From Actinomycetota bacterium (GTDB taxonomy: Bacteria > Actinomycetota > Coriobacteriia > Anaerosomatales > JAUXNU01): a stretch of DNA of 64,000 bases. The stretch spans positions 1 to 64,000 of the forward strand of contig JAUXNU010000160.1 in NCBI GenBank assembly GCA_030682655.1, given 5' to 3'. The notes under the pieces are model-generated. The model was not told the origin of the DNA, did not search any database, and worked only from the letters and a program-made list of their open reading frames with translations. Both the position numbers and the translations under genes were made by a program. Positions 56,072 to 62,828 of the stretch are shown here, one piece after another (position 1 is the first letter of the stretch; each line of letters begins with the position of its first letter).

Positions 56072-57346
56072 CTACCGCTGCATCGAGAGCATCTCGCGCG
56101 TGCGCTTCCATGCGAGGGGAACGCCGCCGATCTGCCACCAGTACAGTACGTACGTCAGCCGCTTCATAAAGATGGCGGGTATGCCGCTCAGATTGAGGCC
56201 GAACATCCACCCGACGCCCCAGCGCGGCCCAACGCTCACGAACTCGCCGTGCTGGTGAGGGTGGTAGGGCACGGGCTCGCGGTCGCGCAGCTCGCGCAAG
56301 ATGTTGCCGGCAGTGTGCTGTGCCTGGCGGATCGCGAACTGCGCCAGCATCGGCAGGGTGCGGTTGGTCTCCGAATCGCGGAACGACGACACGTCACCAA
56401 TGATGTAGACGTTCGGATGCTGAGTCGAGCGACAGGTCTCATCCACGACGAGTCGGCCGGCATTGTCGGCAGCGAGTCCCCAACCGATCGCGTCGGGATC
56501 GGCCTTCGCACCTCCGCAGAACACGAGAACGGAGGCGTCTATCTCGCGTCCGTCCTCGAGAAGGACGGCGTTTCTGGTGACCTCGCGAACCATCGACCCC
56601 AGGACGGTCTTGACACCCATGCGTTTCAGCCTCCGCATGGCCTTCGCCCGTTGCGCCTCACGCAGATCGTAGAGGATCTCCGAACGGCCTTCGACGAGTC
56701 GGACGCGCAGGTCGGCGGGATCGATGCCTGCCGCACGCGCCCGTATCGGCAACATCTGCCCGAGTGTCCCGATGATCTCGATGCCCGTCGCGCCTCCGCC
56801 GATGACCGTGAAGCTGAGTACGCGCTGGCGCTCCTCGGCGGTCGAAGCCATCACGGCCCGCTTGAACGCCGCCTCGACGCGCCGCTGTAGTTCCTGGGCG
56901 TTGGCGACCGACCACATCGTGACTGCGTGTTCCGACAGGCCCGGCACTGGCGGCACGAACGCGATCGCCCCGGTGGCGATCACCAGGCGCCAGAACGGGA
57001 CCTCCTTGCCCTTCTCGTCGCGAGGCCCGAGGACGACAACCCTGCGTGCCGCATCAACGCGATCCACGCGGTTGTAGCAGACGGTGACGGGTAGGTTCTT
57101 GAACACTGCCGGGTGCCATAGTTCGCAGAACTCCGGCCGAGGAGGTCCGACTGCGACCAGGTCGAGCTCGGAAAGCGCCTGCTGACACGGGTTGGGCTCC
57201 ACGAGCATGATTTCGACGTCGCTATTGGGACGCACGGCGCGCCCGAGATTCACGGCGAGCGTTGTGCCCGCGTATCCGCCCCCGGCGATGATTATCCTGC
57301 GAGTGCTTCTCTTCCCCGCACGACTCTCGGACGACCTGGTCTCCAT
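56072..57346 (-). CDS. ndh: Type II NADH dehydrogenase (NDH-2)
   Basis: 424 residues with two dinucleotide folds: IIIAGGGYAGTTLAVNLGR (FAD) and FTVIGGGATGIEIIGTLGQ (NADH), plus NVYIIGDVSSFRD for FAD. Family signatures VIATGA and an amphipathic C-terminus (FMKRLTYVLYWWQIGGVPLAWKRTREML) that attaches to the membrane. It oxidises NADH and reduces quinone without proton pumping. Confidence 0.9.
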   Translation of the reverse strand: METRSSESRAGKRSTRRIIIAGGGYAGTTLAVNLGRAVRPNSDVEIMLVEPNPCQQALSELDLVAVGPPRPEFCELWHPAVFKNLPVTVCYNRVDRVDAARRVVVLGPRDEKGKEVPFWRLVIATGAIAFVPPVPGLSEHAVTMWSVANAQELQRRVEAAFKRAVMASTAEERQRVLSFTVIGGGATGIEIIGTLGQMLPIRARAAGIDPADLRVRLVEGRSEILYDLREAQRAKAMRRLKRMGVKTVLGSMVREVTRNAVLLEDGREIDASVLVFCGGAKADPDAIGWGLAADNAGRLVVDETCRSTQHPNVYIIGDVSSFRDSETNRTLPMLAQFAIRQAQHTAGNILRELRDREPVPYHPHQHGEFVSVGPRWGVGWMFGLNLSGIPAIFMKRLTYVLYWWQIGGVPLAWKRTREMLSMQR

Positions 57347-57469
57347 ACTCCACCCCCTCGTGCTTTTCTACCCCTTTGTTGAGTCCACCAGCGAAAGTGG
57401 AACATACGGATTGAAGCATACCCGGCACGCCCAAGCCGGTCGTTCTCCCAGCCAAGGAGGTCGAAGAAG

Positions 57470-57715
57470 ATGTCGGTCGCCCTGTACTCGCTTTCGACAT
57501 GTCCATACTGCCGCATGACGCGGCGGTTTCTCGACGACAAGAACGTCGAGTACGAGCTGACCGAGGTGGACCTGCTCGAAGGCCAGGAGAAGGAGGACAC
57601 GGTCGCCAAGATTCGCGAGATTTCCGGCGGCGCATCGTTTCCAGTCGTCGTCATCGACCAGGAAGTGCTCGTGGGGTTCAACAAGAAGAGGATGAAGGAG
57701 CTGCTGGATCTGTGA
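57470..57715 (+). CDS. Glutaredoxin with CPYC active site
   Basis: 81 residues: LYSLSTCPYCRMTRRFLDDKNVEYELTEVDLLEGQ, then the cis-Pro loop GGASFPVVVIDQEVLVGFNKKRM. AAGGAGG lies 9-15 nt upstream. It overlaps the following FTR-Rieske gene by GTGA, so the two probably act in one thiol/disulfide pathway. Confidence 0.93.
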   Translation: MSVALYSLSTCPYCRMTRRFLDDKNVEYELTEVDLLEGQEKEDTVAKIREISGGASFPVVVIDQEVLVGFNKKRMKELLDL

Positions 57716-58374
57716 GCAGCGCCGAAGCCCCGAAGCGACGAATGTTCGAGCGGGGAACCACGATCGACGACCTCAAGTCCTTCATGACCCCCTTTGTCGA
57801 CCGACTCGGCTACAAGTTCAACACGGAAACGGAGTTCGTTGACGAGGTCCTGGAAAGCGAGCTCGAGATCCTCGAACTGACCGGCGACATCTACTGCCCC
57901 TGCCGGGTGCGCACAGGCGATCCCAAGCAGGACTACGCGATCGTGTGTCCATGCATCCCGTTCTTTCGTGATGAGTTTGCCGCCATCCGCAAGTGCTGGT
58001 GTGGCCTGTTTATCCTGAGAGACATCGAAGACGGCGCAGATCTCCTTGGTGTGGTCGACAAGCCCGAGGGCCCTGTCGAGGTCCCGGTCTTCCTGGCAAG
58101 CGATGTTCCACCCGGTCAGATCCGCCACATGAAGATCGGCAAGCGCGACATTGCCGTGGCCAACGTCGACGGCGAGTTCTTCGCGGTGTCCAACGTTTGT
58201 CGCCATGCCTTCGGCCCGCTCGCCGAGGGCTTCATGGATGGCCACTACGTGATGTGTCCCTGGCACGGCTGGCGCTATGACGTCCGGACCGGCACGACTG
58301 ATCACCCGAACGCCGACGTGAAGACCTCCCCGGTCACACTCCGCCAAGGAGAGGTGTTCGTCCGGATCGGGTGA
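57712..58374 (+). CDS. Fusion of ferredoxin-thioredoxin reductase catalytic chain and Rieske [2Fe-2S] domain
   Basis: 220 residues. Residues about 10-115 are an FTR beta chain: CPCRVR, VCPCIP, and CWCGLF supply the [4Fe-4S] and redox-active cysteines. Residues about 125-220 are a Rieske/ferredoxin domain: VCRHAFGPLAEGF and VMCPWHGWRYDVRTG (C-x-H...C-x-x-H). Start GTG at 57712 overlaps the glutaredoxin stop. FTR reduces disulfides by one-electron carriers; the fused Rieske could feed electrons in cis to reduce the neighbouring glutaredoxin. No variable (alpha) chain gene is nearby. Confidence 0.9.
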   Translation: MSSAEAPKRRMFERGTTIDDLKSFMTPFVDRLGYKFNTETEFVDEVLESELEILELTGDIYCPCRVRTGDPKQDYAIVCPCIPFFRDEFAAIRKCWCGLFILRDIEDGADLLGVVDKPEGPVEVPVFLASDVPPGQIRHMKIGKRDIAVANVDGEFFAVSNVCRHAFGPLAEGFMDGHYVMCPWHGWRYDVRTGTTDHPNADVKTSPVTLRQGEVFVRIG

Positions 58375-58458
58375 GGGCGGGCCCGGCCCCGCCATGTATC
58401 CTGTGATACCCTTAACTCGTCTGTATAGGGGTGTTCGCGGTTCTGGTGCACCCTCTTT

Positions 58459-59591
58459 GTGCTGCAAGTAGCGGAAGGCGAGATCGACTTGGCAAGAAGC
58501 GCGAGTTCAAGTCGCATATGGCTGCTGGTATTCATCGTCGTTGCGGCAGTGCTCACTCCGGGCATTGCCCTCGCTTGGAACGAGAACCTGCCCTCCTACC
58601 CGCCGATGGACCTTGAGGGTTACTGCTACCCCGAGTGTCACGACAACGGGGCGGGGGTCTTCAACGGCTTCGGGCCGCACGGGAACTACACAACCACCTC
58701 GGGCAAGTGCGACAACTGTCACACCGTGCACGCGGCTGCCGCAGGCAGTAAGAAGCTGCTCCCCAAGCCGACCATCCGGGCAACGTGCTTCACGTGTCAC
58801 GATGGGTCGGGCGGCCGTGGTGTCTATGGCGTGATCGCAGCGCGAGGACTCACTCCGGGAGGCAACGGTCATCGGATTGACAAGACCGATCAGATTCCAG
58901 GTGGCAACAGCCTGTCGGGTGAGACGTCGACCGCAGTGTTCAAGGGCGAGGATTCGTACCTGACGTGCACGGACTGCCACAGCGCTCATGGCGCCGACTG
59001 CGTCCAGCCCTTCCAGGGTGAACGGATGCGCAACGAACAGTTGCGGTGGCCGTACATCTCGAGCAAGCTACTCAAGCAGATTCCGACGAGTGGCGGCGCC
59101 AAGGTGACCATGTACGGGTCCGACTGGTGTCTTGCATGTCACAAAGGTCGCAACAGTTTCGGCCCTACGCACAATCATCCCGTCGAGACGAGCGCGACCG
59201 CCGCACCCGGAGCACCCTACACCTACGGTCGCGTGCCGGTGCTCGCGAGCGACCTGCCGACCTCCACTACCGTGCTCAGTAGCCTCGTAGGAACCGCTGG
59301 TGTGCGCTACAATCGCGGCTTCCTGATGCCGTATCCCCGCACCCCCTGCAGACCGGACACGCGCCAATCTGTCAGCAGTGTCACGAGGACTCGCGAGATG
59401 CCGGTCAACTCGTGGGCAATGGGAGCATCGGAGACGCCACCCCGACGGTGATCGCACAGCCCGACGGTCTTGCGGCGACGGACAACCCGCGATTCCAGAC
59501 CTTCCCGCACGAGTCGGTCAACAGGAGGCTTCTCGTCGAGACGTACGACAACCTGTGCATGAACTGCCATCCGACGACGAGTCTCCCGTGA
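58459..59591 (+). pseudogene. Exported multihaem c-type cytochrome, one frameshift in a C5 tract
   Basis: Initiation is at GTG 58459 or, more likely, TTG 58489 (GGAAGGCGAG upstream, which decides the start). A signal peptide (WLLVFIVVAAVLTPGIALA) precedes CYPECH (CX3CH), CDNCH, CFTCH, CTDCH and CLACH. A missing C in the CCCCC run (about 59341-59345) moves the frame; after adding it, CQQCH and CMNCH follow and the stop is at 59591. Total: six CXXCH plus one CX3CH, about 377 codons. Probably extracytoplasmic electron transfer. Downstream of the FTR-Rieske gene but with its own start region. Confidence 0.85.
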
Positions 59592-59605
59592 TGGCAGGCG
59601 GGTGA

Positions 59606-59719
59606 GAGCGGAGCCGAAGGGCACCCGTGCTCAGACAGTCCTCGACATCAGAAGAGGCGCCCGATGGGCGCCTCTTCTTCGTCTGCGGAAACTGCGCGCG
59701 GGACCCTTCGGCTCCGCTC
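59606..59719. repeat. 16-bp inverted repeat enclosing a terminator hairpin
   Basis: GAGCGGAGCCGAAGGG (59606-59621) is repeated exactly as its reverse complement at 59704-59719. Between them lies the 13-bp-stem hairpin at 59650-59678. The nested structure sits between convergent genes (cytochrome and SPFH protein). Confidence 0.85.
59650..59678 (+). terminator. Hairpin terminator between convergent genes
   Basis: AGAAGAGGCGCCC (59650-59662) and GGGCGCCTCTTCT (59666-59678) are perfect complements around GAT. The 3' side continues TCGTC, T-rich enough for termination on the plus strand; the stem may also terminate the minus-strand gene. Confidence 0.8.
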
Positions 59720-59721
59720 CA

Positions 59722-60669
59722 CTATCCCGCGGCAGGTGGCCGTGAGACACCCGTCCCAGTGTCGTCCTTGAACAGCTCAGCGATCCCGCCGAGGCTGCCG
59801 AGAATCCCGCTGACCTCCATGGGCAGGAAGACCTTGTTGGCCTGACCATTGGCGATCGAAGCGAGCGCATCGAGGTAGCGGATCGCGATCAGTTCGTTGT
59901 CCGGCTTGCCCGCGTGGATAGCCGTGAAGACGTTCGTGATGGCGCTCGCTTCACCCTCGGCAAGTGCGATCTTCTCGAACTTCTCGGCCTCAGCGACGGA
60001 CTTGATGGCCTGCGCCTTGCCTTCGGCTCCCAGGATATCGGCCTGCTTGGTGCCCTCGGCGCGGGTGATTGCCGCTTGCTTGTCGCCGTCGGCTTCGAGA
60101 ATCAGTGCGCGACGGGTGCGCTCGGCCTTCATCTGGCGGTGCATCGCTTCGGTGACGTCGACAGGCGGTTCGATGCGTTGCAGCTCGACACGCACGACGC
60201 GAACGCCCCACTTGTCGGTTGCGTCGTCGAGGATCTGGCGCAGAGCCGCGTTGATCTTCTCGCGGCTCGTGAGTGACTCATCGAGCTGCATCTCGCCGAT
60301 GACGTTGCGCAGGTTGGTTTGCGCGAGCTTGGTCGCGGCGAGATAGAAGTTCGCGACGTTGTAGATGAGTTTCACCGGGTCGGTGGCCTCGTAGTAGACG
60401 ACGGCGTCAACGGTGACCACGACGTTGTCCTTGGTGATGACCTCCTGCGGCGGCACGTCGACCACATTCTCGCGCATGTCGACCTTCGTGAGTCGGTCGA
60501 TGAACGGGATGATGAAGTGTAGGCCTGAGTCGAATGTCTTCTGGTACTTGCCGAAGCGCTCGACGATGCCCTTCTCGTAGGGCCGCACTATTCGGATGGC
60601 GCTCGCGACGTACACCACCGCCACGAATGCTATCGGGACAAGGGCCAGGATGATGACGAAATCGTTCAT
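59722..60669 (-). CDS. SPFH/stomatin-like membrane protein
   Basis: 315 residues from ATG 60669 with GGAGAAG upstream. One N-terminal membrane segment ([21 protein letters not shown]), then the SPFH domain: [55 protein letters not shown] and [17 protein letters not shown], then a coiled coil of [17 protein letters not shown] type. Paired with an NfeD gene, the common operon for membrane microdomain proteins. Confidence 0.92.
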
Positions 60670-61458: not shown

Positions 61459-62412
61459 ATGGGTATCTCTCCAAACGTCGGGGCGACCATCGGTCACACA
61501 CCGGTCGTGTTCCTGAACAGGCTGGCTGCAGGACTTCCGGCACGCGTCGCGGTCAAGCTGGAGTCCCGCAATCCGGGTGGCTCGGTCAAAGACCGCATCG
61601 GACTCGGGATGATCGATGCCGCCGAACGTGACGGTCGCATCGAGCGCGGAGTGACAACGATCGTGGAGCCGACCTCCGGCAACACGGGCATCGCGCTGGC
61701 GATGCTCGGTGCCGAGCGCGGATACCACGTCGTGCTCACGATGCCCGAGAGTATGAGCGTGGAGCGCCGTCGCCTGGTCGCCGCATTCGGGGCAGAGATC
61801 GTGCTCACGCCCGCGGGCGGGGGGATGCAGGGGGCCCTCGACGAGGCCGAGCGCATCCTTGGCGAACGTCCTGACGCATTCATTCCCGGGCAGTTCGACA
61901 ACCCGGCCAACCCTGCCGCCCACTACGCCACCACCGGTCCGGAGGTCGACGAGGGCCTCGCGGGACTGGCAATCGGCGCCTTCGTCGCGGGCGTGGGGAC
62001 AGGCGGCACCGTGTCCGGCGTCGGCCGATACCTGAAGGAGAATCGTCCAGGCACGCGAATCGTCGCCGTCGAGCCGGCGGAGTCACCGCTCATCAGCCAG
62101 ACACGCGCAGGCGAGGCGCTCAAGCCCGGCCCGCATCTCATTCAAGGCATCGGCGCCAACTTCATTCCCAGGACGCTCGACCTCGACGTCTTGGACGAGG
62201 TCCTCACCGTAGAGGGGCAGCAGGCGATCGCGGTGGCACGTCGTCTTGCCGCCGAGGAGGGACTGCTCGTAGGCATATCGAGTGGTGCCAACGTCGATGC
62301 GGCGCTGCGTATCGCCGCCCGGCCGGAGATGGCCGGCACGGTCATCGTGACCGTCGCCCCTTCCACTGGAGAGCGCTACTTGTCCACGGCGCTGTGGGAA
62401 GGCATCGGCTGA
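61459..62412 (+). CDS. cysK: Cysteine synthase (O-acetylserine sulfhydrylase)
   Basis: Makes cysteine from O-acetylserine and sulfide, PLP-dependent. 317 residues with the PLP lysine in NPGGSVKDRIGLGM, the substrate loop PTSGNTGIALAML, the phosphate loop GVGTGGTVSG, and SSGANVDAAL. The GAGG at 61444 precedes ATG 61459. Its last base overlaps the start of an Rrf2-family regulator (TGATG), pointing to a CymR/IscR-like control of cysteine synthesis. Confidence 0.93.
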   Translation: MGISPNVGATIGHTPVVFLNRLAAGLPARVAVKLESRNPGGSVKDRIGLGMIDAAERDGRIERGVTTIVEPTSGNTGIALAMLGAERGYHVVLTMPESMSVERRRLVAAFGAEIVLTPAGGGMQGALDEAERILGERPDAFIPGQFDNPANPAAHYATTGPEVDEGLAGLAIGAFVAGVGTGGTVSGVGRYLKENRPGTRIVAVEPAESPLISQTRAGEALKPGPHLIQGIGANFIPRTLDLDVLDEVLTVEGQQAIAVARRLAAEEGLLVGISSGANVDAALRIAARPEMAGTVIVTVAPSTGERYLSTALWEGIG

Positions 62413-62828
62413 TGCGCGTCTCGCAGCGGCTCGACTATGCGCTGCGCGCGGTTGTCGAGATCGCCAGGTCTCGCGATGGGTCGCCGGTGCCCGCCGGTGC
62501 CATCGCCGAGCGGCTCGGACTGCCTCGGCGTTTTGTCGAACAGCAAGTGAGCGCTCTCGCTCGCCGGGATATCGTCGCGTGTCAACGCGGGGCGAAAGGC
62601 GGGTGCGGGCTCGCGCGGCGAGCCTCGGAGATCACGATCGGCGATGTCGTTCGCGCAATCGAGGGCGAGGTTCTCGACGTGCCGGTCTCGGACGGGTCTG
62701 CGGTCGGCGATGCATGGGTGTCGCTGGCCGGCAGGTGGTATGAAGTGCTCGAAGAAGTCACCTTGGACGAGCTGGCGCACGCGCAGGATGAGTTGGAGAG
62801 GCGGTCCTCGGCCACGTACTACATCTAA
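62412..62828 (+). CDS. Rrf2-family transcriptional regulator
   Basis: 138 residues starting MRVSQRLDYALRAVVEIARS, then AGAIAERLGLPRRFVEQQVSALARRDIVACQRGAKGGCGLARRASEITIGDVVRAIEG, the Rrf2 winged helix. Only one cysteine pair is near the wing, not the three Cys of IscR, so it is more like CymR. Coupled to cysK. Confidence 0.92.
   Translation: MRVSQRLDYALRAVVEIARSRDGSPVPAGAIAERLGLPRRFVEQQVSALARRDIVACQRGAKGGCGLARRASEITIGDVVRAIEGEVLDVPVSDGSAVGDAWVSLAGRWYEVLEEVTLDELAHAQDELERRSSATYYI

Follow-up and report, generated by a model that had tools for sequence, protein, structure and literature searches.

We found, in the 64,000-nucleotide stretch of DNA from an anaerobic-type Actinomycetota bacterium analysed here (the window), a two-gene unit in which a CPYC glutaredoxin (Grx) overlaps a protein that fuses the catalytic chain of ferredoxin:thioredoxin reductase (FTR) to a Rieske domain. 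This unit is conserved order-wide, and in distant bacteria its three modules recur as neighbouring but separate genes, suggesting a so far undescribed electron feed into the FTR family. From the sequences, we consider it probable that Grx and the FTR-Rieske protein form a disulfide-reducing relay, running from ferredoxin to Rieske, then to the [4Fe-4S]/disulfide site and finally to Grx, with Rieske in the role of rubredoxin. The fusion, the gene overlap and the synteny of the unfused genes argue that Rieske, FTR and Grx work together, and the conserved cysteines argue for FTR chemistry.

The locus spans 57470-58374 on the plus strand, exactly where the sequence-only reading had placed it, with Grx at 57470-57715 and the fusion at 57712-58374. 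The Grx gene is preceded by a strong Shine-Dalgarno sequence, AAGGAGGT, at 57454-57461 (plus strand) and encodes a glutaredoxin/NrdH-like redoxin of 81 aa (Pfam PF00462, E 8e-15), whose CPYC active site is invariant in 35/35 ortholog Grx sequences. The GSH-binding GG-x-D motif was not found in these 35 orthologs, which carry a VGFNKK-like motif in the C-terminal region; of the two marks of a GSH-dependent glutaredoxin, CPYC is thus present and GG-x-D absent. Among NCBIfam models the YruB-type ranks first, followed by UXX-star and NrdH, every score being below cut-off, and the nearest solved relatives in a sequence search of solved structures are 3ic4, 3nzn and the Grx half of 7pwe.

The fusion gene (plus strand, 220 aa) starts with a GTG that shares 4 bp (GTGA) with the TGA stop of Grx, and an SD-like AAGGAG lies within the Grx gene at 57695-57700 (plus strand), 11 nt before this start. 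The FTR catalytic domain covers residues 18-107 (57763-58032, plus strand; PF02943, E 1.3e-18, 67.4 bits for a curated cut-off of 22) and the Rieske [2Fe-2S] domain residues 124-198 (58081-58305, plus strand; PF00355, E 8e-19, 68 bits for a cut-off of 20). Both profiles therefore match in one 220-residue protein, confirming the fusion, and the worry that its two domains might be translated separately was laid to rest, as no stop codon separates them either in the window gene or in 37 aligned orthologs. Throughout those 37 sequences the six cysteines of the FTR domain (62, 64, 79, 81, 95 and 97, in the pattern CPC-x14-CPC-x13-CWC) are invariant, and so are the four Rieske ligands, C163-x-H165 and C182-x2-H185. 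The Rieske domain has no extra disulfide cysteines, and since the C-terminal domain is of the Rieske type (CxH...CxxH) and not a 4-Cys rubredoxin, the protein is distinct from the fusion that defines ferredoxin:disulfide reductase (FDR). An AlphaFold2 model based on the 37-sequence alignment reached a pLDDT of 85.6 and a pTM of 0.74, with low confidence in the cluster loop of the FTR domain (pLDDT about 61-70), and Foldseek matched the Rieske part of the predicted fold to dioxygenase Rieske ferredoxins. A start at 57499, inside Grx, that appears in the mechanical list of open reading frames was rejected, the stop/start overlap at GTG 57712 being conserved in orthologs; the antisense and alternative-frame ORFs around 57292-58467 were rejected as well, because the conserved proteins sit in plus-strand frames.

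We also looked at the surrounding genome. In the window's assembly (2.94 Mb, 221 contigs, 97.4% complete) the fusion gene gives the only PF02943 match, and profile search found no match to the FTR variable chain PF02941 anywhere, so that the absence of a variable chain, noted earlier for the neighbourhood, holds genome-wide. The divergent neighbour at 56072-57346 (minus strand) encodes a type II NADH dehydrogenase (NDH-2; nearest solved relatives 4nwz and 5na1), which stands beside the fusion locus in a minority of orthologous loci and is therefore placed outside the core unit. It was also considered as a possible BphA4/HcaD-type reductase for Rieske, an idea rejected on its match to type II NADH dehydrogenases and on its lack of conservation beside the locus. 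Genes for CysK, SPFH, multiheme cytochrome, metallo-hydrolase and ABC proteins recur near some fusion loci, none of them constantly. The multiheme cytochrome gene downstream in the window (58459-59850) is seemingly frameshifted near 59345 when compared with locus L032, the matching reading resuming in another frame, possibly through an assembly error or as a pseudogene. Further on, 61459-62828 holds a cysteine synthase gene and then an Rrf2-like regulator; in several relatives a cysteine synthase gene is again present, some 1-2 kb downstream of the fusion.

Comparison with 150 relatives showed that the fusion is matched in 57/68 sampled genomes of the window's order at 60-81% identity, a count that includes one genome (G009) in which a contig edge truncates the fusion and another (G003) with a single in-frame TGA, and no full-length fusion match was found outside the order among these relatives. 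Across 397 genomes of the window's phylum, fused matches were again confined to the order. A scan of one genome per species turned up substantial matches at 39 loci, whose titles nearly all name Coriobacteriia or other actinobacterial MAGs, and Grx lies directly upstream of the fusion in every one of them that has upstream DNA; the sole locus without such context (L042) opens only 46 bases ahead of the match. Most orthologous loci share the overlap of stop and start by 4 bp, which bears out the coupling of the CPYC glutaredoxin to the fusion that had been read from the window. Order-wide conservation and invariant cofactor ligands together exclude chance. No FTR-Rieske fusion was found in viral contigs, nor in plasmids, where nothing covered 80% of the query. 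Some genomes of the order (loci L076, L077 and L078) encode a second, distant FTR-like protein (CPC...CPC...CHC) with a very long branch and no Rieske domain.

The same modules also occur as separate genes. In a sample of 399 Bacillota genomes (the phylum of a Paenibacillus), eight had a strong FTR match, and gene-by-gene reading showed adjacent, same-strand Rieske, Grx and FTR catalytic chain (FTRc) genes, in that order, in 8/8. In the class of one of these eight, a Rieske match lies upstream of FTR on the same strand in 12/12 FTR-positive genomes, with a gap that fits one Grx gene, against 1/86 FTR-less genomes with any Rieske match (Fisher p 1.6e-14, an overstated value as the genomes are related). 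In a second, small class Rieske is upstream of FTRc in 3/3 genomes, as judged from match spacing. Taken together, these Bacillota samples give 16/16 distinct genomes in which the same FTR subfamily shares a cassette with Rieske, eight of them with the Rieske-Grx-FTR series read gene by gene. The stand-alone Bacillota Rieske polypeptide keeps its ligands, and in three loci (L117, L118 and L120) a two-[4Fe-4S] ferredoxin gene is directly upstream of Rieske. In two others (L116 and L119) the cassette adjoins a gene named from its sequence as a SulP-like anion transporter.

Elsewhere in the window's own phylum, one genome (G437) carries four adjacent unfused genes in the order Rieske-Grx-FTRc-Rieske, overlapping or abutting one another (L093: Rieske 1667-1990, Grx 1990-2244, FTRc 2237-2572, Rieske 2574-2909). 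In another (G153, locus L095), Grx overlaps an FTRc-rubredoxin fusion by ATGA, which is the layout of the window with rubredoxin replacing Rieske. At L094:1918-2373, divergent from a leucyl-tRNA synthetase-like gene, a rubredoxin-like domain was also seen N-terminal to an FTR domain, the reverse of the FDR order. A sample of 343 genomes from a further phylum, around G509, gave only Rieske matches at E <= 1e-18. Our sampling covered the window's phylum, Bacillota and this further phylum; other fusions may exist in Desulfobacterota and Archaea, two groups outside it that are known to contain FTR relatives.

Parts of the unit have solved counterparts. PDB 4TPU, a 173-residue chain deposited as 'Rubredoxin' in which sequence search of solved structures placed an FTR domain at 11-96, is the Methanosarcina FTR-rubredoxin enzyme FDR, whose rubredoxin centre probably passes electrons. 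Like the window protein, FDR carries an additional iron centre after its FTR catalytic domain and has no variable chain; unlike it, the extra module is a rubredoxin and the FTR domain falls outside the Rieske-associated FTR group. FDRs have been described as FTRc-related Fe-S enzymes of archaea and bacteria, one of which, from Methanosarcina, was reported to reduce a thioredoxin-like protein (PMC6262447). 7PWE ('Ferredoxin-thioredoxin reductase subunit B') is a single chain with Grx at 6-82 and then FTR at 86-175; it shows the same pair in the same order, but joined in one polypeptide and without Rieske. The FTR of plants and cyanobacteria (1DJ7, 2PU9) shares the CPC...CPC...CxC pattern of the catalytic chain, with marginal sequence similarity to the window domain (E about 0.005), and differs in being a heterodimer with a variable chain, in having a thioredoxin partner and in lacking a fused Fe-S module. 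The Rieske domain resembles in fold and ligand pattern the dioxygenase Rieske ferredoxins (3DQY, 1VCK, 1FQT), which feed ring-hydroxylating oxygenases, whereas here it is fused to an FTR catalytic domain.

The earlier view that no enzyme of this architecture has been characterised consequently stands for the Rieske module and falls for the rest, considering that structures exist both for Grx-FTR (7PWE) and for FTR-rubredoxin (4TPU, FDR). A Grx/FTR pair without variable chain is already known, and the Rieske module is the only part without a characterised counterpart in the literature searched; in the open literature no published description of FTR with Rieske was found, only plant and cyanobacterial papers. 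FTR-type enzymes connect ferredoxin pools with protein thiol control in anaerobes. As for how bacteria without the plant variable chain supply them with electrons, an answer exists to our knowledge only for the rubredoxin-bearing enzyme of archaea. A Rieske module that is conserved, as part of a fusion in one phylum and as a separate neighbour gene in another, would offer a concrete second solution.

In the relay that we propose, the FTR domain would hold a [4Fe-4S] cluster with C62, C79, C81 and C95 as ligands by homology, and the adjacent redox-active disulfide, C64-C97 by the same homology, would reduce the CPYC disulfide of the co-translated Grx. The C-terminal Rieske [2Fe-2S] centre would be the point of electron entry, accepting electrons one at a time from a carrier of low potential, for which a 2[4Fe-4S] ferredoxin is the likeliest candidate, and handing them to the FTR cluster as the rubredoxin domain may do in Methanosarcina FDR. 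We infer in this way the cluster types and their potentials, the direction of flow, ferredoxin as donor and the substrates of the relay. The sequence-only reading had proposed a self-contained passage from Rieske through FTR to glutaredoxin; the unfused Rieske-Grx-FTR cassettes of Bacillota and G437 support the passage, but self-contained goes too far, since a primary donor is required and a ferredoxin gene adjoins three Bacillota cassettes. The reduced redoxin would serve cytosolic targets in parallel to the NADPH thioredoxin system. Next to the canonical NADPH thioredoxin reductase that the host genome also encodes, the relay would make a second thiol-reducing line; the genome has a class III ribonucleotide reductase (NrdD) too, which is one plausible candidate client of the redoxin.

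The weak point of the proposed relay, which is also the source of its interest, is the gap in potential between typical Rieske ferredoxins and FTR. Ferredoxins of the dioxygenase type lie near -150 mV and the plant FTR disulfide is far lower, at roughly -320 mV; therefore, the step from Rieske to FTR could be uphill unless the Rieske centre or the disulfide is shifted, and it would be unusual for disulfide reduction to be driven by a Rieske centre. These values would instead favour a flow from thiol to Rieske, in which the FTR site oxidises the dithiol of the redoxin and electrons exit via Rieske towards an acceptor, for instance the quinone pool. The NDH-2 gene that diverges from the locus in the window and some relatives fits such a reversed chain, but we think it improbable, considering that NDH-2 and cytochrome neighbours are not conserved and that characterised FTR relatives reduce disulfides.

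The relatively high potential generally known for Rieske domains of such sequence type is also compatible with a role in sensing redox state or oxygen, or with a safety valve: rather than supplying electrons, Rieske would gate or drain the FTR site, and might for instance shut down disulfide reduction in an oxidising cytosol. FDR and the Grx-FTR lineages work without Rieske, which is in line with such a role and shows that Rieske is not obligatory for FTR chemistry. On the contrary, the strict association with Grx and FTRc and the ferredoxin gene directly upstream in three loci resemble an electron chain, and we regard gating or draining as unlikely, if a little easier to entertain than the reversed flow. 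We give a lower chance still to a mainly structural Rieske, a beta-barrel that would replace the SH3-like FTR variable chain and keep its cluster off the electron path. The genome lacks that chain and the domain occupies the place of an accessory module, as this would predict, but the four ligands are invariant and are retained where the Bacillota Rieske is a polypeptide of its own.

Results of tree building placed the Rieske-associated FTR domains in one group, apart from FDR and Grx-FTR (support 94/91, on a short alignment with long branches). In the best tree the fusion's Rieske domains separate from those of the Bacillota cassette, and the motifs of the two differ (CRHAFG...CPWHGW in the fusion and CPHLGC...CPCHDW in Bacillota). 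Independent recruitment of two Rieske lineages is thus the best tree, with a single origin not rejected (AU p 0.138). We tentatively suggest, short of favouring it, that Rieske may be an undescribed third type of module for electron entry into FTR-type reductases, in addition to rubredoxin and the direct docking of ferredoxin, and that it may have been recruited more than once, giving rise in two phyla to a wire of the form ferredoxin-Rieske-[4Fe-4S]-redoxin. Recruitment would have given an upstream, stand-alone, disulfide-type Rieske in Bacillota and a C-terminal fusion of the dioxygenase type in the window's order, one genome having both positions.

A variant of the active site was also observed. 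FTR catalytic chains with Sec at an active-site cysteine are known as FtrB-family selenoproteins (NCBIfam NF041072; PMC2398784), from which the window protein differs by using Cys; the passages on that family do not mention Rieske fusions. In one further fusion ortholog (L068:6166-6168, on the contig shared with L074, G003:C9) an in-frame TGA takes the very place of active-site Cys64 (CP-TGA-R), comparable to the Sec of that family, and the frame is otherwise open to its end. The contig coverage is 1.6 and the hairpin downstream of the TGA is unexceptional (z -1.25). The genome of this organism encodes a strong tRNA-Sec (72 bits), and selenocysteine at the Cys64 position of this ortholog is plausible.
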